Source: Thermococcus sp. 4557 (GTDB taxonomy: Archaea > Methanobacteriota_B > Thermococci > Thermococcales > Thermococcaceae). Taken from it: a DNA stretch of 64,000 bases. Numbering within the stretch: position 1 is the stretch's first letter; each line of letters starts with the position of its first letter. The translations under genes and the position numbers were made by a program. The notes beneath the pieces were generated by a model that was given only the letters and a program-made list of their open reading frames with translations, made no database searches and was not told the DNA's origin. Below, piece after piece: positions 23,785 to 36,108 of this stretch. Location: positions 1,550,001 to 1,614,000 of the forward strand of contig NC_015865.1 of the NCBI RefSeq assembly GCF_000221185.1. Reading direction: 5' to 3'.

Positions 23785-24773
23785 GGCTTCCACCCCATCA
23801 GGTCCCTCAATCCTTCAAAAACTTCCTCCACAATCCTCTTTCTCCTCTCGAGCTCGGCCCTCTCATAGCGCCGCCTTATCCAGAGCGGCATGAGGGGGGA
23901 GACCTTTTTTCCCTCGTAGTCCGCCACCTTCGAGATGAGCGCTCCGAACTCCTCCCTGTCCCCGAAGAGCCTCGCACCGTAATAGGTCACGAACGCCACC
24001 AGCGGTCCCCTCCTGCCGCGCACGACGAAATCTTCAACTGCTTTTCTAGCCTCCATCATCTCGGGACCCAGCCTCTCCAGCGTTTTTGCCTCGTGCCTCC
24101 GCCACTGCTCGAGGAGGTAGCGCTCCGGGTCATGCCCCGCCACGTGGGAGTACACCATCGATCCGGCCAGAAAGACCCCCAGGACGAGCACCAGCCACTC
24201 CCCGTAGAAGACCAGCTCCGGATGGCTCTCGCTGAGTTCCCCTCTGACGGAAACGTAAAGGCCCAAAACGCCGCCGAGGGTACCTATTCCAAGCAGGTTC
24301 CTCTCGATGACCTCCACCCAGGGGTACCTCTCGACGAGTTCTGAGGCGGCGTAGCCGAGCAGGAACGCGGCCCCGGCGTAGCTGAAGACGCTTCCGTAGG
24401 CCATCAGCTGGGGCGTTCTGGACAGACCGTAGAGTGCCAGGAAGACCCCAACCCCCCTAACGACCCTGGCCCGCTCCTCCAGATTCGGCGCGGTTAGTGC
24501 GACCCCAGCGCCGAATGAAATCAGGGCCAGCGGGATGCGCCACTCCGGGATCGGGATGAGAAGGGCCGCGGCCGAGAGGCCGAGCGGCACGAGAAGCCCG
24601 GCGAGGAGCTCCCTTCCCAGTCCCTTCGCCACCTCACGCGCCGCCATGAACAGCGCTAAAATTACCGCGGGCCCCTTGATGGCGCTGAGGGGCTCCGCCC
24701 ATGGTGAAAGGGCGTAGATGAGGGCAACCGCCCCGAAGTAAATGCCTATCCTTCCCCAGTTGAGCTTAAACAA
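23781..24773 (-). CDS. Multi-pass membrane protein of the MoxR operon
   Basis: About 330 residues with eight or so hydrophobic segments in the first 230 (IGIYFGAVALIYALSP; AVILALFMAAREV; LVLVLGVFLAGSMVYS), then a basic cytoplasmic tail of about 100 residues (RRRYERAELERRKRIVEEV). I place the start at TTG 24773, since GGAGGTG stands six bases before it; a TTG at 24788 has no such site. The start overlaps the end of the transglutaminase-like gene by 8 bp. No family recognised. Confidence 0.75.
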   Translation of the reverse strand: MFKLNWGRIGIYFGAVALIYALSPWAEPLSAIKGPAVILALFMAAREVAKGLGRELLAGLLVPLGLSAAALLIPIPEWRIPLALISFGAGVALTAPNLEERARVVRGVGVFLALYGLSRTPQLMAYGSVFSYAGAAFLLGYAASELVERYPWVEVIERNLLGIGTLGGVLGLYVSVRGELSESHPELVFYGEWLVLVLGVFLAGSMVYSHVAGHDPERYLLEQWRRHEAKTLERLGPEMMEARKAVEDFVVRGRRGPLVAFVTYYGARLFGDREEFGALISKVADYEGKKVSPLMPLWIRRRYERAELERRKRIVEEVFEGLRDLMGWKP

Positions 24774-27700
24774 TGCAGCCACCTCCAACCAGCTCGAGGA
24801 GCGAGCGGTAAAATCTGATGAACTCCCCCCGCGACACCTCGACCGTGCTGTACTTGGCCCTCTCGAAGACCTCCGTCAGGGTATCCAGGGGCTCCCAGGG
24901 GTACATCATGTCCGTCAGCGCCGCGGCTATCTCCCTGGGGGTCATTCCCTCGACGTTCAGGCCGGCCCCTCTGGCCCACGGCAGGAAGCACCTCTCGTAG
25001 TAATCGACCACGGCGTCGTCGTAGCGGGGCACTATCCTCACGGTCGCACGTTCGATGAGCTCCCCGCAGCGTGCCTCTATGGTGTGTTCCCCACCTTTCA
25101 TGGTCAGGGTAAAGTCCCTGCCCCGTCCTACAAGCTTTCCATCAACGTAAAGCTCCGCCTTTCCCTCGCACTCGATGCTCAGCTCCACCGTTTCCCCCTC
25201 CCGGAATACGGGAATACCGTTGTTGAAGATAATCTTCAGAACCTTCTCCGCCCTCTTTTTCTCGGGTTCTCTTCTCACGAGACGGTATCTGACTATCAGT
25301 GCGCCGATAACCAGAGCTATGGCGATGTAGGTCCATGGGATTCCCCGTTTTCTGGATATCACTACGTGGAACCTCCCGCTCGCGGGCAGGTAGTAGGATG
25401 AGCCGTCAAAATCAACGACCACAGTTGCGTTGGTTTCCTTCTCCGGCACGGGAACCTCGAGCGTGGCTATTCCAGAGCCGTTGGTCATTACCCGCATCGC
25501 GAAGCCGTCCACGCTGACGTTGAGGTAAACCCCGCTCACCGGATTGTCGGAGGAATCAACGACCCTGAACCTCAGCGCCGCGGTTTTTTCGCCCTCCACC
25601 CTCGGCGTCAGGAGCTCTATTTCCACCGGTGAAAGAACCACCACCGTCGTTCTCCCAAGGGTTCTGGTACCGTGGCGGAATTCCACTGACCTTTCCCCCA
25701 CCGTCTGGAAGGGTTCGATCGTCAGCTCAAAGCTTCCGTTGGTCACGTCTATCGGATAGGTCTTCCCCGGAAACACGTAGGCCTGCAGGGCCGCATCCTC
25801 AATTCCAGCGACCTTTCCGCCGATTCTGATGGGCTCCCCGATTTCTCCGGTTATCCTCTCCGGAACCTTCAGCTCAACCGTCGCCACCGTGACGTTCATG
25901 GCGGACGGGGAGTAATCTGGACTTCCTGGATACCTCACGGTCAGCACGTGACTCTCAATCGTGGGGAGCTGGAGAACCAGGGAGAACCTGCCGTCCGTGA
26001 GGGTGGGGGTCTCCCCGAGGGGCCTTCCATCGAGGTAGTATTCGATGCTGGCATTGGCTATTGGCCCCCCCGCCCCGCTGAGGAGGCTGCCGATGACCGT
26101 GACGTTGCCGGGCCTGGCCAGTATCAGCCCTGGCATCGAGAATCTGGCCAGTCCCCTGACTTCGACCGTGAACGTGGCCCCGGAGGGGAGGTAAGGATAT
26201 CCGAGGGGAGTGAGGTAGTATACGAAGACCTGCTTCGTCCCTGGGGAGAGGTACGCCGGGATTTTAACGGGGAGCGCGAAGGTTCCGTTGGATGCGTTTG
26301 CGTAGCCTATCAGGACGTCCCTTTCCCCGTCGTTTATGAACGCAGCCACACTTCCCCGGCGCGGCCGTTCGCCCGTGGCGCTGCCCTCCACGGTTCCGTT
26401 TATAACGAAAGAATCCCCCGCGGTCACCGCTCCGGGTACCTCAGCTTTGATTTCGGTTCGCTCCACTACGAAAACCGGGAGGTGGATTTTGTATTCGTCC
26501 GCTCCCCGCGTGACGGTGAGGTTCTCGATGTGCCAGCCGTTGGGGTAGTCGTCGGGTGGGATTAGCCTGACGTACATCCGGGTCTCGTTCCGCAGGGTTT
26601 CGATGGAGAACCAGGAATCCACCAGCGGGGATTCCGTTTTGAGGCCCACCTCCCCGGTGCCGGGCACGGTGAGCTCAACGGTAAGCGCATCGTTCTTGCG
26701 CAGGTACGCCGTGACCGGGTCGGGAAGGGCGCTCACGTTTCCCGGGACAGTCACAGGGACGATCCTGGTCAGCGAGTTTCCTTCCCTATCCGTTGCCCTG
26801 ACCATGACCGGATAGTAGCCTGGCTCCTCAAAGGGGCCCACCGTCAGGTTGTATATCCCCGGCTCCCCGATGAGCGCTATCCTCCCGATGGCTGGAACGT
26901 CCACGGCAACGCTCGCGTTTGCCCCGCTCGCGACCCGCTCGAACTTTATCGTAACCGTTCCTGATGAACCGGGCTCCAGGGGCATCAGAACCCCGGGTGC
27001 CTCCAGTTCGAAGGGCAGGTACACGTTCTGATCCGTGGGGTGCAGGGGGTCGAAGACCAGCCAGCCCGCATCCTTGAAGTAAACCTCCGCCCAGAAGTGC
27101 CTGTTCTTTTCGGTCACGACCTGGGTCTGGGGGACTGCATCGATGTAAACCCCCTCGACGAGCCTCGCGGGAAGGCCGTTCAGCCTGGCCAGAACCACGA
27201 AGGCGGAGGCGAAGTCGTAGGAACTCCCTGCCTTTGATTCAAACAGAAACCACGTCAGCCTGTCAGCCCCCTCGGGGGGAGTCACGTTTTCCACGTGCCT
27301 GTAGTTGCTGGCCAGGTACCTGACTATACTGAGCGCTTTCCAGTAGTCAGAGCGTGCTCCCATCGTTATGCTCTCCGCCAGGGTCACCAGCCTGGTGTCG
27401 TTGGGGGCCGAGAGATACACCGTCTGATTTCCCGCGGTGAGGTTGACCAGGTAGGGCATATCAAAGGTGTAACCCACCGCGGAGAATGAGTAGGCTGTCA
27501 CGTTCAGGGAGGTTCTGAAGAGGTTGTACTCGGGAATAGCCTCTGCCCCGGCACCGTCAACGCGGGTCGTGTAGAGGGGGGTGAAGAGGTTCCCGCTGAG
27601 GGGAAGAAACGAGACAACGGTTACCCTGTCCCTCTCGGTGTGGTGGGGGACTTTTATCTCCGGGGGGGCGATGACGTTGCCCGGAATCACTGTGGCGTTT

Positions 27701-27987
27701 CCCGTCGTCCACCTCCCGTCGGTGTAGTCGGTGTACACGTTGAGTCGGAGGTAGTGGGTGTGGGCCGCGCCCGTTACGAGGAGAACGAAGTGATGCGAAG
27801 CCGGAGCCTCGACCGGCGGCCCGGTTTCGTTGGTCTCGTTCCCGGGCGGAAGCTTTGGGGAGAGTATCTCCTCGATGCTCTTGGTTCCGGGCGGGGCTTC
27901 GATGAGGGCTGGTCCAAGCACGACGGAGACAAGGAGGAGGGAGAGCAGTGTTAGCGTGAGAAAGGCGATGTATTTCCGCCTCACCAT
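24766..27987 (-). CDS. Transglutaminase-like membrane protein with Ig-like repeats
   Basis: A 1073-residue exported protein. A signal anchor (8-27) is followed by a transglutaminase/protease-like core near residues 205-315: SSYDFASAFVVLARLNGLPA, then HFWAEVY (His297) and VFDPL (Asp313). The usual nucleophilic cysteine before xxFA is Ser256 here, so classic activity is doubtful. Several beta-sandwich repeats (about 350-890), a membrane segment (PWTYIAIALVIGALIV) and a 150-residue cytoplasmic end resembling DUF4129 follow. It opens the minus-strand MoxR operon, with a strong TATA box 20-30 bp upstream and a near-leaderless start. Confidence 0.87.
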   Translation of the reverse strand: MVRRKYIAFLTLTLLSLLLVSVVLGPALIEAPPGTKSIEEILSPKLPPGNETNETGPPVEAPASHHFVLLVTGAAHTHYLRLNVYTDYTDGRWTTGNATVIPGNVIAPPEIKVPHHTERDRVTVVSFLPLSGNLFTPLYTTRVDGAGAEAIPEYNLFRTSLNVTAYSFSAVGYTFDMPYLVNLTAGNQTVYLSAPNDTRLVTLAESITMGARSDYWKALSIVRYLASNYRHVENVTPPEGADRLTWFLFESKAGSSYDFASAFVVLARLNGLPARLVEGVYIDAVPQTQVVTEKNRHFWAEVYFKDAGWLVFDPLHPTDQNVYLPFELEAPGVLMPLEPGSSGTVTIKFERVASGANASVAVDVPAIGRIALIGEPGIYNLTVGPFEEPGYYPVMVRATDREGNSLTRIVPVTVPGNVSALPDPVTAYLRKNDALTVELTVPGTGEVGLKTESPLVDSWFSIETLRNETRMYVRLIPPDDYPNGWHIENLTVTRGADEYKIHLPVFVVERTEIKAEVPGAVTAGDSFVINGTVEGSATGERPRRGSVAAFINDGERDVLIGYANASNGTFALPVKIPAYLSPGTKQVFVYYLTPLGYPYLPSGATFTVEVRGLARFSMPGLILARPGNVTVIGSLLSGAGGPIANASIEYYLDGRPLGETPTLTDGRFSLVLQLPTIESHVLTVRYPGSPDYSPSAMNVTVATVELKVPERITGEIGEPIRIGGKVAGIEDAALQAYVFPGKTYPIDVTNGSFELTIEPFQTVGERSVEFRHGTRTLGRTTVVVLSPVEIELLTPRVEGEKTAALRFRVVDSSDNPVSGVYLNVSVDGFAMRVMTNGSGIATLEVPVPEKETNATVVVDFDGSSYYLPASGRFHVVISRKRGIPWTYIAIALVIGALIVRYRLVRREPEKKRAEKVLKIIFNNGIPVFREGETVELSIECEGKAELYVDGKLVGRGRDFTLTMKGGEHTIEARCGELIERATVRIVPRYDDAVVDYYERCFLPWARGAGLNVEGMTPREIAAALTDMMYPWEPLDTLTEVFERAKYSTVEVSRGEFIRFYRSLLELVGGGCIV

Positions 27988-28101: not shown

Positions 28102-28887
28102 ATGGAGTTCGAAAGGAAGCCCCTCATAGGCATGGTTCACCTGAAACCCCTCCCCGGTTCCTACCTCTACGGCAGGAACCTTGACGAGGTTATCCAGGCT
28201 GCCCTACGGGACGCGAGGACGCTGGAAAAAGCGGGTTTTGATGCTATAATGGTCGAGAACTTCGGCGACGTTCCCTTCCCGAAGTACGTGGACAAGACGA
28301 CCGTCGCGGCCTTCACGGCGGTCGCCAAGGCAATCCGCGACGAGGTTGACCTTCCCCTCGGGATAAACGTCCTCCGCAACGATGGAATTGCCGCCTATTC
28401 CATTGCCTACGCGGTGAAGGCGGACTTCATAAGGGTGAACGTGCTGAGCGGTGTGGCTTACACAGACCAGGGCATCATAGAGGGCATCGCCCACGAGCTT
28501 GCTAGGCTCAGAAAGCTCCTCCCGAGCAAAATAAAGGTCTTCGCGGATGTACACGTCAAGCACGCGGTTCACTTCTTCGACTTCGAGGACGCGATAAGGG
28601 ACACCGTCGAGCGCGGCCTTGCCGATGCAATCGTCGTCAGTGGGAGAGCAACAGGAAAGCCCGTCGATGTGGAAAAGCTAGCCCTCGCAAAGAGAATCTC
28701 CCCTGTGCCGGTGGTGGTGGGTTCGGGCACCTCCTACGACAACCTCCCGGAGCTCTGGGAGTATGCCGATGCCTTCATAGTGGGCACGTGGATCAAGCGG
28801 GAAGGAAGGGTCGAGAACGAAGTTTCTCCGGAGCGGGCAAGGAAACTGGCCGATTTGGCGAAGGATCTTCGGTCTGAGAATCACTAG
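28102..28887 (+). CDS. BtpA/SgcQ family protein
   Basis: A 261-residue TIM-barrel protein recognisable from IGMVHLKPLPGS near the N-terminus, GFDAIMVENFGDVPF, ADVHVKHAV and VVSGRATGKPVDVEKL. BtpA was linked to photosystem I assembly in cyanobacteria, which cannot be the role here; SgcQ relatives sit in carbohydrate clusters. The catalytic function is unknown. ATG 28102 follows GGTGGTGTT. It is divergent from the MoxR operon. Confidence 0.88.
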   Translation: MEFERKPLIGMVHLKPLPGSYLYGRNLDEVIQAALRDARTLEKAGFDAIMVENFGDVPFPKYVDKTTVAAFTAVAKAIRDEVDLPLGINVLRNDGIAAYSIAYAVKADFIRVNVLSGVAYTDQGIIEGIAHELARLRKLLPSKIKVFADVHVKHAVHFFDFEDAIRDTVERGLADAIVVSGRATGKPVDVEKLALAKRISPVPVVVGSGTSYDNLPELWEYADAFIVGTWIKREGRVENEVSPERARKLADLAKDLRSENH

Positions 28888-28889
28888 TT

Positions 28890-28920
28890 TGACTTTACTT
28901 TCACTCGAATTTTCTTTTCC
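28890..28920 (+). terminator. Possible T-rich terminator after the BtpA-like gene
   Basis: TTTGACTTTACTTTC followed by ATTTTCTTTTCC directly after the stop codon gives several T runs of the kind archaeal polymerase uses to terminate. Compositional support only. Confidence 0.35.
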
Positions 28921-29017
28921 GAAAGTCTTATTATCCAGGAATGCGTAATTTGTTACAAAGCCAGACCCTGTCCCGCTTTTCTTTTCCGCGAGATGGGTTT
29001 TGCCCGGAAGTGAGCGC

Positions 29018-29143
29018 ATGCCCTCCGAACCCCTCACGGGCTTCAACGTTCTCGGCCCGCTCCTCGGGCTTCTCCTTCTCATTGGGACAGCCCTGCTTCT
29101 CTTCCTGCTCGTGAAGTGGCTTTGGGGACTTGTTCGGAGGTGA
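29018..29143 (+). CDS. 41-residue single-pass membrane peptide
   Basis: ATG 29018 to TGA 29143 encodes MPSEPLTGFNVLGPLLGLLL and onward: a short polar N-terminus, one long Leu-rich membrane helix (about residues 11-33) and a basic end KWLWGLVRR, so the C-terminus is probably cytoplasmic. The upstream GGAAGTGAG is a moderate ribosome site. The next gene's ribosome site (GGAGGTGA) includes this stop codon, which argues for a coupled operon and a real gene. No family known. Confidence 0.6.
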   Translation: MPSEPLTGFNVLGPLLGLLLLIGTALLLFLLVKWLWGLVRR

Positions 29144-29148
29144 ACGTG

Positions 29149-29676
29149 GTGCTTAAGGTAATGGCCATGGTCTTGGGCGTTATGCATCTACTGGCCTTTC
29201 CAGTTTCCGCTCCCCAGTTTCCGGATCGACTGCCATCTGTGACCAAAGAGAAGGCGGAATCATTCGGCCTGATATGCTTCTGGAGCGGTGAGGTGGAGGA
29301 AACCCACTCCTGCCAGTACAAGTTCAATGCGGGATCGAACTGCGCCGACCTCGGGGAAGTTTACGAGAAGAGATACTTCGACGGTACCGGATTCATTTCG
29401 ATCAAGCACACCTACGCGGCCCTGGTGGATGACCACTACTACGCTTACGGCGAGGTCGGGTACCTCAAGGAAACGAACGTCTGTGACCTCGAGGGACTCG
29501 CCCCGGTTCTGCTCGACATGTGTCTGGAGGGTATACCCAACAGCACAGTGAGGGTTTCGGTGAACTCCTTGACCACCGCCCCGGAAAACTCGAATGTTTT
29601 CTCTGAAGACTCTGGGGAGCTCTCGCCCGAGGAGTTCGCGAAGGGGATAAGAGTTGTTGAAATAAGAAAATCGTGA
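29149..29676 (+). CDS. Secreted cysteine-containing protein, unknown
   Basis: About 175 residues with an N-terminal signal peptide (MLKVMAMVLGVMHLLAFPVSA). The mature part has five or six cysteines (LICFWSG, HSCQYKF, SNCADLG, NVCDLEG, DMCLEG) that could pair as disulfides outside the cell, as hyperthermophile surface proteins often do. I chose GTG 29149, five bases after GGAGGTGA; the frame is open upstream but lacks a site. It belongs to the surface-gene run 29018-32383. I do not recognise the family. Confidence 0.7.
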   Translation: MLKVMAMVLGVMHLLAFPVSAPQFPDRLPSVTKEKAESFGLICFWSGEVEETHSCQYKFNAGSNCADLGEVYEKRYFDGTGFISIKHTYAALVDDHYYAYGEVGYLKETNVCDLEGLAPVLLDMCLEGIPNSTVRVSVNSLTTAPENSNVFSEDSGELSPEEFAKGIRVVEIRKS

Positions 29677-29689
29677 GGAGATGTGAAAA

Positions 29690-31387
29690 ATGAAAAAATT
29701 CCCCATCTTTGTTGCCTTTCTCCTTGTTGTGGGCCTCTTTTTGCCCCTTGCTAGCTCTTCCAGCGCCTGGGAGGTCATCTACAACGTTCAGCGGGATAAG
29801 ATGGAGCTCGACGGTGTTTACAACCCCGTATCCTTCATTCCAGGAACCTCCGGGGATTACTACCTTCTCGGAAGCCACGGGGCGGGGCTGGCCGTTCTGG
29901 TGCACCTCTCGCCGATGGGTGAAGTGCTCTGGATGAAGAACTTCAGCCTCAGCCAGAAACTCCCCCTAAACCTTCCCTCCGGGCAGTTCCAAGTCATACA
30001 GGACATCGGCGTGGGGAGGGACGGTATCTACGTCGTTTTGATGACGAACGGCGTCCTCAACGTTTCGGCCCCGAGTGACTGGGTGCGGGGAGACCCGCTG
30101 TTCACGCTGGTCAAGTTCGACTTCTCGGGGAACCCGGTCTGGGCCAGGGCCTTCAAGAACTCCAACGGTGGCTATGGGGGCATCAGGCTTCAACCTACTG
30201 ACGACGGGGCCATCGTGCTGGCTCCGGTTTACGCGCACATGCACCACAAGGATCCGGACGACCCCTACGATACTGACCACATAGCCCCCCGCCTCGACGT
30301 TGGGGCGATAAAGTTCGACTCCTCCGGGAACCTCGAGTGGGTCCACATCTACGGAAGGGAAGGCATCCACGAATACGTTTGGGCCGTGGGTTCCGACGGA
30401 AGTGAAGTCGTGATAGCCTTCTCCTCCGACGGAGGCCCGGACCTCGGGTTCATAGGCATAGACCCCGAGACGGGAAACCTGAGATGGGTCAGGGAGTACA
30501 AGCAGGCCATCGATGGCGGCGAGCTCTGGAAGATGGGCGGATTCAACAGCCTCTCCGGTGGAAGGCCCATGCTCTACAGTGTTCCCGACGGGTGGATCTA
30601 TACCAACGGCCTCCCAGGGAAGTATGACGGGGGGGCCTCGGTCTGGATGAAGCTCGATAAAAAGGGGAACATCCTCTGGAGTGGCTTCTGGAACACTACT
30701 CTCTACAAGGGACAATCTCCTGCGAGCTTTGCCCTCGCAGACGATGGTAACTACGTTCTCTTCGACCCGCTCGTCAAGATGTCCCCCTCCGGTGAGATCC
30801 TCAGGGTCTACTACGACGTTCAGCCCCACGGCCACTACATAGCCCGCGCTGGGGACGGCTTCGCCATCTTCCTCGTCCCGGACAGGCTCCTGAAACTCGG
30901 CCCGAACATGGAGTTCGCCGGCTGCGATGTCCACCATGTTGAGGAGGGAGGAGAGCTGACCCCTTGGGTTCCCAACTTCGTGGAGCTGGGGAAGGATGAT
31001 GTAAAGTTCGTGAAGGCGCCCTTCTACTCGGAGGGTGAGTTTGGGGAGGCTTTCGAGTTCGACGACCTCCCGACCGGGGAATGGTACAGGATCGGAAAGC
31101 CCAGTGTCTGGGTTTACGACCATCCAAGCGAGTACTTCCACGTTAAGGACGTCTGCAACCAGACTGGCTCGTCCGAGGCTACCGGGACCTCGACAGGCCC
31201 CGCCACGTCCTCCAACTCACCAACTGCCACGTCTGAAAGCCCCGGCTTTACGAGCTCAGGATCATCCGGCGGCTCCAGCGGCGGGGAAACGGGCACGGAC
31301 GATGGGTTTTCGGTTGACGTGACCTGCGGGCCCGGGATAATTGCCCTGCTCGTGCTGCTGGTAGTTGCAATAACCAGAAGGAGGTGA
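29690..31387 (+). CDS. CGP-CTERM surface protein with beta-propeller-like repeats
   Basis: A 565-residue exported protein. A signal peptide (1-26) is followed by repeated FDxSGNxxW blades (KFDFSGNPVW, KFDSSGNLEWV, DKKGNILW, SPSGEILR), as in quinoprotein-like propellers. A Ser/Thr/Pro/Gly-rich linker (about 485-540) is likely glycosylated. The end is the CGP-CTERM sorting signal: TCGPG, a hydrophobic helix and RRR. The cysteine probably receives a lipid anchor after processing. ATG 29690 is preceded by GGAGATG. Confidence 0.88.
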   Translation: MKKFPIFVAFLLVVGLFLPLASSSSAWEVIYNVQRDKMELDGVYNPVSFIPGTSGDYYLLGSHGAGLAVLVHLSPMGEVLWMKNFSLSQKLPLNLPSGQFQVIQDIGVGRDGIYVVLMTNGVLNVSAPSDWVRGDPLFTLVKFDFSGNPVWARAFKNSNGGYGGIRLQPTDDGAIVLAPVYAHMHHKDPDDPYDTDHIAPRLDVGAIKFDSSGNLEWVHIYGREGIHEYVWAVGSDGSEVVIAFSSDGGPDLGFIGIDPETGNLRWVREYKQAIDGGELWKMGGFNSLSGGRPMLYSVPDGWIYTNGLPGKYDGGASVWMKLDKKGNILWSGFWNTTLYKGQSPASFALADDGNYVLFDPLVKMSPSGEILRVYYDVQPHGHYIARAGDGFAIFLVPDRLLKLGPNMEFAGCDVHHVEEGGELTPWVPNFVELGKDDVKFVKAPFYSEGEFGEAFEFDDLPTGEWYRIGKPSVWVYDHPSEYFHVKDVCNQTGSSEATGTSTGPATSSNSPTATSESPGFTSSGSSGGSSGGETGTDDGFSVDVTCGPGIIALLVLLVVAITRRR

Positions 31388-31391
31388 TGAT

Positions 31392-31663
31392 GTGGGGCTA
31401 CTCAAGAAGCTCATCGTAGGCCTCGTCCTGCTCGTGCTCATCGGTGCCATAGCGGTCTACGGCATCCAGTACTACTACTCAACGCCTACGACCGGGTTCT
31501 TGTGGGGGGAGACGAGAGCGGCAACGTCCTGACCGAGTCCGAGACGGACAGTTTAATCTACGGCTCCAGCGTGCCGTTCCAGGTGAGGGTGGACTACAAG
31601 GCCCCCGTCGGGGTTGATTCGTACGAGGTTAAAATCGAGATTTACAGACTCGTGGAAAAGTGA
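31392..31663 (+). pseudogene. Small membrane-anchored protein gene, frameshifted
   Basis: GTG 31392 opens a frame with a basic start and one membrane helix (MGLLKKLIVGLVLLVLIGA) up to about IQYYYS. A second frame then continues NAYDRVLVGGDESGNV, GSSVPFQVRVDYKAP and EIYRLVEK to TGA 31663. Joining them needs one added base near 31466-31480, next to the TACTACTACT run, giving about 90 residues: an N-terminal anchor and a small external beta domain. Either the repeat lost a base in sequencing or the gene is decaying. It lies between the CGP-CTERM and lipoprotein genes, in the same direction. Confidence 0.65.
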
Positions 31664-31672
31664 GGTGGAAAA

Positions 31673-32383
31673 ATGAAAAAACTCGTCTTTGCCCTGTTTG
31701 CGGTGGCCCTCTTGGCCATCGCGGCCGGCTGTGAAAACCCGGACACGAACGTGAAAACGGAGAAGACCCTCACGATAAACGAGGTAACGGTGCACTACTC
31801 CGGCGACGTATCCCTCTCGCAGGCCAAAGCGGTCCTGAGCTTCGTGGGGGACAACTTTCAGATAAACGGGGAAACGGACGTTTACGTCTCTAAGAGCGGG
31901 GATTCCTACACGGTCAAGGTGACGACCCCCTACGCCAGTGCAAGCGACATCGACGGGAGAACGGCTTTCTACGTGAAGGTAATGGCGTCGAAAATGTCGC
32001 AGGACGTTTTTAACGGGGCAAAACTTACGCTGAAACTCCTGAACGGCGATGAAAAGGAGGTCTTCTCGGCGGAGAGCAAGTACGCCTACATCGAGTCGAA
32101 CGGCATAACCGTCTGGTACTCCGGCGTTAGTGTAGATGATGCCCAGAAGGTTCTCGACTATGCGGTTTCCTTCGCCGGAAGCGGTCCGTGGGACATCTTC
32201 ATCGACGGGAGCAATCCCTACAGGATAAGCGCCATGAGCTCCTTCGAGAGCGCCGACGAGATTGGAGACGCCGAAAACGCCTACAGGGGGATGGCGTCGG
32301 AACTGTCTCAAGAACTTGGTGGAAACGTGGTCATCTACGTGCTGAACCCCGAGGGGGAAGAGATAGCGTCCTTCAACAGCTGA
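31673..32383 (+). CDS. Lipoprotein with two tandem homologous domains
   Basis: A 236-residue protein with a lipoprotein-type signal (LLAIAAGC, lipid cysteine at residue 20). The mature part contains two copies of one domain. TINEVTVHYSGDVSLSQAKA (about 34-53) recurs as ESNGITVWYSGVSVDDAQKV (about 143-162), each followed by a V-x-F-x-G-D/S segment, a short strand region and a MASxxSQ helix (VMASKMSQD; GMASELSQE). An internal duplication is therefore clear. ATG 31673 follows GAGGTGG. Function unknown; it is the last gene of the surface cluster. Confidence 0.82.
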   Translation: MKKLVFALFAVALLAIAAGCENPDTNVKTEKTLTINEVTVHYSGDVSLSQAKAVLSFVGDNFQINGETDVYVSKSGDSYTVKVTTPYASASDIDGRTAFYVKVMASKMSQDVFNGAKLTLKLLNGDEKEVFSAESKYAYIESNGITVWYSGVSVDDAQKVLDYAVSFAGSGPWDIFIDGSNPYRISAMSSFESADEIGDAENAYRGMASELSQELGGNVVIYVLNPEGEEIASFNS

Positions 32384-32556: not shown

Positions 32557-32624
32557 AGTGATGGCGCCTTAGGTGATTTAGGAGGACGGTTCTTTCGCCC
32601 TTTCTGAGTCTGGAGATGGTTCCT

Positions 32625-33074
32625 ATGGAGAATGTACTTTACATCGTGCCCAACGTGTCTTACAAGAAGGGTTTTCTGAGCTCGGCGGCGGTCAACCTCG
32701 TGATAACGAATGAGAGAGTCATAGCGGCCCACATCACGAAGGAAACGATAGCAAAGGGAAAGGAGGAGGCCAGCGGCATCACCGGCTACCTGGCTGGCGT
32801 CGCCTCCGGCTACAGCGAGAGGTACTACGAGATGGAGCCGAGCGAGATACTGGAGGAGTCGGAGGAGAACTTCGTCATCCCGATGGCTGACATCAGGGAG
32901 GTCAAGCTCAAAACCGGGGACTACGATGGCGGAAAGATGGACGAGCTGGAGATAAAGGGGCGCAAAAACATCAAGTTCAAGGCCAACCCCGGGTCAATGA
33001 GCGTGAAGAAGATCAAGGAGGCCTTCAAAGCGGCCGGCATCAAGGTGAAGGGTGGCGGCTTCTTCAACATCTGA
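32625..33074 (+). CDS. PH-like domain protein
   Basis: A 149-residue soluble protein with the beta-strand then terminal-helix layout of bacterial PH-like proteins: VNLVITNERVIAAHI near the N-terminus matches the LITNRRII strand seen in the PH/SHOCT protein at 20113. A central ENFVIPMADIREVKLK and a C-terminal lysine-rich helix follow. No SHOCT tail. ATG 32625 suits the upstream GGAGATGG; ATG 32616 is an alternative with a poorer site. Function unknown. Confidence 0.78.
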   Translation: MENVLYIVPNVSYKKGFLSSAAVNLVITNERVIAAHITKETIAKGKEEASGITGYLAGVASGYSERYYEMEPSEILEESEENFVIPMADIREVKLKTGDYDGGKMDELEIKGRKNIKFKANPGSMSVKKIKEAFKAAGIKVKGGGFFNI

Positions 33075-33133
33075 GCGGAAAAATTATATTTCCCGCGTCC
33101 GAACACCTCCCATAATTCTCACGGGTGGTGCTC

Positions 33134-34483
33134 ATGGGAAAGTACTTTGGAACCAGCGGCATCAGGGAGGTCGTCAACGATAAGCTGACGCCGGAGCTGG
33201 CTTTAAAGGTCGGAAGGGCCCTGGGGACCTGCCTCGGCGGCGGAACCGTCGTAGTCGGTATGGACACGAGGACGAGCGGCGAGATGCTCAAGAGCGCTTT
33301 CGTCAGCGGTTTACTATCAACCGGCGTTGACGTTGTCGACATAGGTCTGGCCCCGACTCCCCTGACCGGCTTCGCCATCAAGCTCTACGGTGCCGACGCG
33401 GGCGTTACGATTACAGCGAGCCACAATCCGCCTGAGTACAACGGTATAAAGGTCTGGCAGGCCAACGGAATGGCCTACACCCCCGACATGGAGAACAGGC
33501 TTGAGGCTATTCTGGAGTCCGGGAACTTCAAGAAGGCTCCCTGGAACGAGATTGGAAGCCTCAGAAAGGCCGACCCGCGGGAGGATTACATAAGGAAAGC
33601 CCTCGAGATGGTTCACCTGGACGGTTCCTACACCGTCGTCGTTGATTCCGGCAACGGGGCCGGCTCGATTCTGAGCCCCTACCTCCAGAGGGAGATGGGC
33701 AACCGCGTGATAAGCCTCAACTCCCACCCCAGCGGTTTCTTTGTCAGGGAGCTTGAGCCGAACGCGAAGAGTCTGTCCGCGCTGGCAAAGACTGTGAAGG
33801 TCATGAAGGCCGACGTCGGCATAGCCCACGATGGCGACGCCGACAGGATTGGGGTCGTGGACGACCAGGGGAACTTCGTCGAGTACGAGGTCATGCTCTC
33901 ACTCATAGCCGGCTACATGCTCAGGAAGTTCGGGAAGGGGAAGATAGTCACGACGGTAGATGCCGGTTTCGCCCTGGACGACTACGTCAAACCCCTCGGC
34001 GGTGAGGTGATAAGGACGCGCGTTGGGGACGTTGCAGTCGCAGACGAGCTGGCCAAGCACGGCGGCGTCTTCGGAGGTGAGCCGAGCGGGACGTGGATAA
34101 TGCCCGAGTGGAACCTCACCCCCGACGGCATCTTTGCCGGGGCGCTCGTCCTTGAAATGATTGACAAACTCGGCCCGCTGAGCGAGCTGGTAAAGGAAGT
34201 TCCGCGCTACGTAACCTTGAGGGCGAAGATACCCTGCCCCAACGAGAAGAAGGGGAAGGCGATGGAAATAATAGCTAAGGAAGCCCTGAAGGCTTTCGAC
34301 TACAAGCGGCTGATAGACATCGACGGTGTTAGAATAGAGAACGACGACTGGTGGATTCTCTTCCGCCCGAGCGGGACGGAGCCGATAATGCGCATAACCC
34401 TGGAGGCCCACACCGAGGAGAGGGCTAAGGAGCTCATGGAGAAGGCGGAGAGGCTGGTGAGGGGGGCGATAGCCAGGGCCTGA
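33134..34483 (+). CDS. glmM: Phosphohexomutase (phosphoglucosamine/phosphomannomutase family)
   Basis: Moves phosphate between the C1 and C6 positions of hexose or hexosamine phosphates. The 449-residue protein has all four family elements: [11 protein letters not shown] with phosphoserine Ser96, metal-loop DGDADRIG, sugar loop GEPSGTW and phosphate loop RPSGTEP. Thermococcales carry several paralogues (phosphomannomutase/phosphoglucomutase, phosphopentomutase, phosphoglucosamine mutase), and motifs alone do not settle the substrate. ATG 33134 follows GGGTGGTGCTC. It ends one base before the stop of the convergent YdjM-like gene. Confidence 0.85.
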
Positions 34484-35646: not shown

Positions 35647-36108
35647 TCATCCCTCAAAGGTTTTCAGGAATGGAACCCTCTCGAAGTCAGAATCAAACGT
35701 CAGGATCAGCTCGATTCCATGCTCCTTGCACGTTGCGGCGATGAGAGAATCGTTTGGTAAGAGTTCGTAGTCCTTTCCAATTTGAGACGCGAGTTTTATC
35801 GTGTTTTCGCTTAGGGGGATGATTTTCAAAAACCCTGCCTCGCTGAGTTCCTCCAGGGCTGTCTTGACCCTTTCATACACGAAAGTGTAGTCTTTCAAAT
35901 GCTTTTTGAGGTCGTAGGCCCCTTTAAGGCCGTCCTGAATGGCGAGTGTAAACATGACCTTGTAAACTGTCTCTGAGAACACTACCGGGTTCGTGACCAG
36001 GGTATGTCCCTCATCTATGGCCTTCTTGACGAGTTCCTTCGCCCTCTGATCCCCGAGGTGCAGACCAACGAAAACCGATGAATCCACAAAGACCTCAGAG
36101 CGACTCAT
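35647..36108 (-). CDS. vapC: VapC-type PIN-domain toxin
   Basis: A 153-residue PIN ribonuclease. Acidic metal ligands are visible as VFVDSSVFVG (Asp9), the central glutamate in NPVVFSETVYK, LLPNDSLIAAT and LTFDSDF. PIN toxins cleave RNA, often tRNA, when their antitoxin is lost. The start overlaps the antitoxin stop by 14 bp, the usual antitoxin-first layout. Longer than the minimal VapC, with a helical insertion around residues 60-95. Confidence 0.88.
   Translation of the reverse strand: MSRSEVFVDSSVFVGLHLGDQRAKELVKKAIDEGHTLVTNPVVFSETVYKVMFTLAIQDGLKGAYDLKKHLKDYTFVYERVKTALEELSEAGFLKIIPLSENTIKLASQIGKDYELLPNDSLIAATCKEHGIELILTFDSDFERVPFLKTFEG

Follow-up and report, generated by a model that had tools for sequence, protein, structure and literature searches.

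In a 64,000-nucleotide stretch of the Thermococcus sp. 4557 chromosome (contig NC_015865.1, positions 1,550,001 to 1,614,000; called the window here and numbered from its first letter), five co-directed open reading frames at 29018-32383 follow one another at spacings of a few bases, and most of their starts are preceded by GGAGGTG/GAGGTG-like ribosome-binding sequences. They lie between a BtpA-family gene (28102-28887, forward strand; PF03437, E value = 8e-106) and a gene named phosphomannomutase/phosphoglucomutase-like from a reading of its sequence alone (33125-34483, forward strand). An original prediction had taken the five frames as a cell-surface cluster and the best candidate here for an undescribed system. 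We compared about 60 loci, most of them bordered by the same two genes, and found a common scheme: BtpA, a leader hairpin, an optional 41-amino-acid (aa) peptide, two genes that we call A and B, a varying set of genes C, D, E and F, and the mutase-like gene. The five frames are indeed close and co-directed, and they belong to an undescribed surface module, but two of them are not intact genes. The A/B remnants and the comparison across loci rule out the five as a complete system; the genes that remain are accessories of a variable locus, not a fixed five-gene pathway.

The frame at 29149-29676 (forward strand, 175 aa), predicted to be the gene of a cysteine-bearing secreted protein, proved to be a deletion-derived fusion of A and B. 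In sequence searches, its homologues were mostly frames of 477 to 516 aa that aligned in separated pieces, and in a near relative, G032, a third piece aligned with the end of a different gene. A DNA alignment of the window to G032, from which the structure of the remnants was read, gave the order of the in-frame fusion as follows: the signal peptide and start of A; a first junction within A (29269-29270, forward strand), at which about 207 bp are missing in frame and which has a TGATA direct repeat on both sides in the relative; more of the A N-terminal domain; a second junction (29566-29610, forward strand), at which about 1.4 kb with the A C-terminal domain and nearly all of B is missing and A is joined to B in frame; and the last ~25 codons of B. 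The cysteine-bearing trait is not ancestral: where the sequences align, the intact G032 homologue lacks four of the five cysteines. No other copy of A or B was found in this one-contig genome, in which the function of both is predicted to be lost. Similarly, what had been described as one small anchored beta protein is the two-frame remnant of gene D (31392-31663, forward strand), which encodes 127 aa in relatives. It is split into a 46-aa frame (31392-31532) and a 53-aa frame (31502-31663) by the loss of 1 nt near 31477, which shifts the frame, and of 111 bp near 31510. The 1-nt deletion falls in a TACTACTAC run, so that a sequencing error at 31477 is conceivable; minus that deletion, D would be read in frame as a protein of 90 aa.

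The peptide, C, E and F are the only module products that this genome can still make intact. The peptide (29018-29143, forward strand) is the 41-residue membrane peptide of the original prediction; it has a single helix, and its EPLTGxN..GPLLGLLLL family is conserved in nine loci with the same leader (family-wide ratio of nonsynonymous to synonymous polymorphism [pN/pS] = 0.53). Gene C (29690-31387, forward strand; 565 aa) encodes a signal peptide, GN-x-x-W repeats, a Ser/Thr/Gly-rich linker and a CGP-CTERM tail, and is also present in 13 other genomes at 71-94% identity. Its ratio of nonsynonymous to synonymous divergence (omega) against G032 is 0.26-0.28, and that of C and E together is 0.26-0.30. 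The description of C as a CGP-CTERM propeller protein agrees with the sequence and position of the C-terminal motif, which scores just under the cutoff of TIGR04288 (20.1 bits, cutoff 21); a propeller-like fold is only suggested by the repeats and by an SBBP-propeller family match far under the family cutoff (E value = 0.0055). Like other CGP-CTERM surface proteins, C shares the motif and hydrophobic tail, which is uninformative on function. None of the cargo genes of the window matched a family with confidence, which agrees with the claim that no described pathway is represented.

Gene E (31673-32383, forward strand), found in 30 of 121 genomes, is a lipoprotein gene with a lipobox and tandem copies of one alpha/beta domain (self-match probability, 98%; predicted local distance difference test score [pLDDT] of the domain model, 93), as the term two-domain lipoprotein had implied. 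A fold search of the PDB with this model returned nothing informative (best E value = 0.03); its best-looking match, a KH-like domain of ribosomal S3, had a template modeling score of 0.59 and was set aside, as was homology of E to B (hhalign, 5%). Gene F (32616-33074, forward strand; 152 aa, no signal seen), which the original prediction had not included, is cargo of the same exchanged segment and occurs in 27 of 121 genomes; its synonymous divergence (dS) from G032 is 0.04, versus 0.5 for the flanks. Since its own TATA-like boxes lie upstream, F is probably a separate transcript.

Erosion of A and B was also found elsewhere. In two further genomes, G014 (locus L098) and G045 (L100), A and B were lost through different deletions and C is intact, and only scraps of B are left in G050 and G055. 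The fusions of the window and G014 are in frame, and that of G045 shifts near its end. We found no C outside an A/B locus except next to remnants of A and B; once these two genes are gone, C may be what is worth retaining.

Next to the common scheme stand a minimal form of the module, consisting of the leader and D, and genomes with nothing between BtpA and the mutase-like gene. The genes are syntenic in other Thermococcaceae and stay together even where the module lies elsewhere in the chromosome (L105, L135 and L197); tandem units occur at L115 and L120. Four loci (L129, L143, L199 and L248) have, beyond BtpA, a second, propeller-like CGP protein of 955 aa; it has a leader copy to itself, and a D-like gene comes after it. 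In the 115 genomes of the phylum, A and B are confined to the Thermococcaceae, and neither had a convincing match in Pfam, NCBIfam, PADLOC or PHROGs. PDB profile searches yielded nothing useful and no toxin domain. A plasmid or phage origin was tried with each protein in one collection and dropped, A having no match among plasmids and B none among phages. The sequences carry a signal peptide on A and C, a membrane helix on B and D and a lipobox on E; surface location and cotranscription are predictions. The key parts of the module, A, B and the leader hairpin, are not recognisable from one genome.

The leader lies upstream of the peptide. Its 45-nt hairpin (28961-29005, forward strand), an element beyond those of the original prediction, has a 15-pair stem and an 11-nt pyrimidine loop (TTTTCTTTTCC). 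A transcription factor B recognition element (BRE)/TATA-like element, CGAAAGTCTTATTA (28920-28933, forward strand), also precedes the module in other species, where it is conserved together with a 29-bp block upstream of the peptide, as seen by comparing the upstream regions of nine loci. The BRE/TATA-like element would act as the promoter and, given its distance from the hairpin, we expect the mRNA to start with the hairpin. The leader block is single copy in its own genome and, across the family, occurs at 59 sites in 50 of 94 genomes, versus 3 sites with a reversed-pattern control. Of the 115 genomes of the phylum, 57 have sites found by a covariance model of the hairpin; these genomes are all Thermococcaceae, and most of the sites had also served to build the model; the window hairpin scored 64.5 bits (E value = 1.4e-16) with its own site in the training set. 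Pairing was present in 85.5% of cells versus 35-45% when slid, and covariation was strong, with 64 both-side changes versus 30.6 ± 3.8 after shuffling, a value reached by 0 of 500 shuffles. For 64 of the 64 leaders in mapped loci, the next module domain downstream belonged to a module gene, whichever gene that was. The leader had no match to Rfam covariance models up to an E value of 1. In the window, a further leader-like site ahead of BtpA was a chance hit of a loose setting that allowed 4 mismatches. A weak extra match in another genome (L253, G005:C1:1154746) precedes an unrelated gene for a Thr-rich lipoprotein and may belong to a wider regulon of the loop. Its loop, TTTCCTTTTCT, is nearly the same on a different stem, which suggests that the loop is the recognised part of the hairpin. 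Fluoride and preQ1 riboswitches are regulatory RNAs of archaeal 5' untranslated regions in T. kodakarensis (PMC4247193). The leader resembles them in being a structured RNA with which a Thermococcales mRNA is predicted to begin, but it is a simple hairpin whose pyrimidine loop is constant and which goes with a single gene module.

We then considered how A and B vary across loci. The C-terminal domain of A is of one of two types, as is the domain that follows the membrane helix of B. Among neighbouring A-B genes, type 1 stood with type 1 (n = 29) and type 2 with type 2 (n = 16), with no crosses, and intact A without B was found only at a contig end. The types showed no detectable relation, and the idea that the two A C-terminal types are homologues found no support. 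In A proteins with 89-92% identical C-termini, the N-termini were at the shuffled level (0.22-0.29 versus 0.26), and the same N-terminal types were seen on both C-terminal types; by these comparisons, the A N-terminal domain is hypervariable and swapped between backbones. The C-terminal half of A type 2 (for example, L133:2265-4769) has an IDNDxDGLVDCDDPD acidic/cysteine repeat that resembles a stretch of teneurin (PDB 7plp, E value = 0.002), with NF033662 below its cutoff. In B type 2 (for example, L133:4762-6018), the N-terminal domain consists of DxNxDGxxD repeats, which look calcium binding and EF-hand-like (Pfam match not significant).

The cargo and the borders have different histories. 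For C, E and F against G032, G014 and G039, dS is 0.03-0.16, and for BtpA and the mutase-like gene it is 0.5-1.1. Because synonymous divergence lies so far below that of the flanks, species exchange the cargo of the locus, which is a mosaic, since the nearest partner genome differs from gene to gene. At L115, the second leader is preceded by a fragment that matches the end of BtpA, which would be expected had recombination taken the border with it.

In our literature searches, the only comparable Thermococcales modules that turned up were the VARTIG modules, which are hypervariable, patchy and exchanged between species (Makarova et al. 2021; PMC8416519). Both kinds of module are limited to Thermococcales, patchy and hypervariable, with membrane or secreted proteins, interspecies recombination, pseudogene fragments and a layout like that of polymorphic toxins (PMC8416519). 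However, our module varies at the A N-terminus and VARTIG at the C-terminal region, and our module usually occupies one fixed site with a constant leader hairpin. The large protein of the VARTIG first gene is arCOG07710, with several immunoglobulin (Ig)/CARDB domains (PMC8416519); ten A, B and D proteins had no match to a CARDB/Ig family up to an E value of 1, and the VARTIG C-terminal motif D[ND]NxxxG[GD] was present in 0 of the 125 A-F proteins listed. Because the Ig protein, the C-terminal variability and the C-terminal motif are all lacking, the module is best seen as analogous to VARTIG rather than as a member. Polymorphic toxin systems also share cognate neighbouring gene pairs, domain swapping and tandem units with it (Zhang et al. 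2012; PMC3482391), but their layout, a constant N-terminal trafficking part with a variable C-terminal toxin, is reversed here, with a constant A C-terminus and a variable N-terminus. As to the cognate immunity gene beside the toxin in such systems, the observation here is a strict pairing of neighbours by domain type, in which an immunity role would be conjectural. No toxin or immunity domain was recognised in Pfam, NCBIfam, PADLOC, PHROGs or PDB profiles. Bacteriocins of the colicin/pyocin type have a swapped N-terminal domain and a constant C-terminal domain paired with a neighbour protein. The A-B pair follows the same design, with no sequence relation found. Little is known about conflict and recognition systems in hyperthermophilic archaea, and this locus adds a second module beside VARTIG, with clear rules: the leader is constant, the smallest form is leader-D, the cognate pairs are of two types, and the N-terminal domain is swapped.

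We give an even chance to the reading that what remains in the window is a modular surface operon, exchanged among Thermococcaceae and here eroded, in which A and B present a variable recognition domain. B would be held in the membrane by its N-terminal helix, and its next domain would dock the cognate C-terminal domain of secreted A, whose variable N-terminal domain would face outside and recognise viruses or related cells, which it might also attack. The products of C, D and E could be anchored partners or protection factors, and the hairpin with its constant loop may control translation or stability of the whole mRNA. Several points weigh against this reading. The functions assigned to A and B (binding, secretion and recognition) are putative; the 29 and 16 pairings are a description and not a test, since the loci share ancestry; several loci come from draft or metagenome assemblies; and an AlphaFold model of A from three sequences was not interpreted (pLDDT 37). 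A few module loci have no detectable leader (L130) or a weak one (L120 and L203), and the window hairpin alone folds no better than shuffles (z = -0.11), so that the case for it rests on covariation. More tentatively, the whole may be a cassette system with a constant promoter-hairpin leader, mostly at a single site, and swapped cognate A-B pairs whose recognition domains are interchangeable, serving self/non-self recognition or antagonism, its loop read by a dedicated regulator. Thermococcus has genetically tractable strains, so that pairing, secretion, antagonism and the leader RNA are directly testable.

Other explanations were weighed against the eroded-operon reading. It is rather unlikely that A is a secreted, bacteriocin-like toxin whose C-terminal domain kills while the swapped N-terminal domain binds the target, with B as cognate immunity on the outer membrane face and C, D and E as helpers or extra immunity. 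Such a system would fit the strict matching of cognate A C-terminal and B N-terminal types, the swapped A N-termini, the near absence of intact A without B, the tandem units and the exchange between species, but A has no toxin domain or known family and only two C-terminal types. Moreover, B was lost along with A in three eroded loci, and because immunity is usually the last to go, this joint loss argues mildly against B as simple immunity. We think it improbable that the module builds an adhesin or surface-layer-associated appendage whose exposed N-terminus varies to escape viruses, A/B loss being selected because A is a virus receptor; although hypervariability at an exposed terminus, repeated loss of A and B only and surface signals on all parts would suit it, no virus or adhesion link was found, and a receptor alone leaves the leader and the strict pairing unexplained.

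The remnants themselves can be read otherwise. That the fusion frame is a new, shortened functional protein, leaving D as the sole pseudogene, seems doubtful: both deletions are in frame, no stop has arisen and the four gained cysteines could form disulfides, but the frame lacks the A C-terminal domain, the B membrane anchor and the B domain, and it could be kept by coupling to downstream C instead. Its omega of 0.43 in the larger segment, which may be counted in favour, is not clearly different from that of other genes; relaxed selection was set aside for the same reason, the contrast of 0.43 with 0.26 resting on too few changes to decide. Least credible of all, an intact operon disguised by assembly or sequencing errors would draw on the single assembly without reads behind it and on the TACTACTAC run, yet it faces three separate whole-codon deletions set in diverged sequence, no B elsewhere in the genome and similar independent deletions in two others. 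A single genome can thus mislead, its deletion remnants being read as genes.

Beyond the module, a scan of genome contigs for BtpA gave 15 Thermococcaceae loci, mostly from metagenome bins, and a literature search for BtpA in Thermococcales found nothing. Downstream of the mutase-like gene, sequence reading placed a PIN-domain-like (VapC-like) frame (35647-36108, reverse strand) among several paralogous frames of ~195 aa. Divergent from BtpA, a gene at 24766-27987 (reverse strand) encodes a protein of 1073 aa that has a transglutaminase core, Ig-like domains and a DUF4129 tail; in many, not all, relatives a homologue adjoins BtpA.

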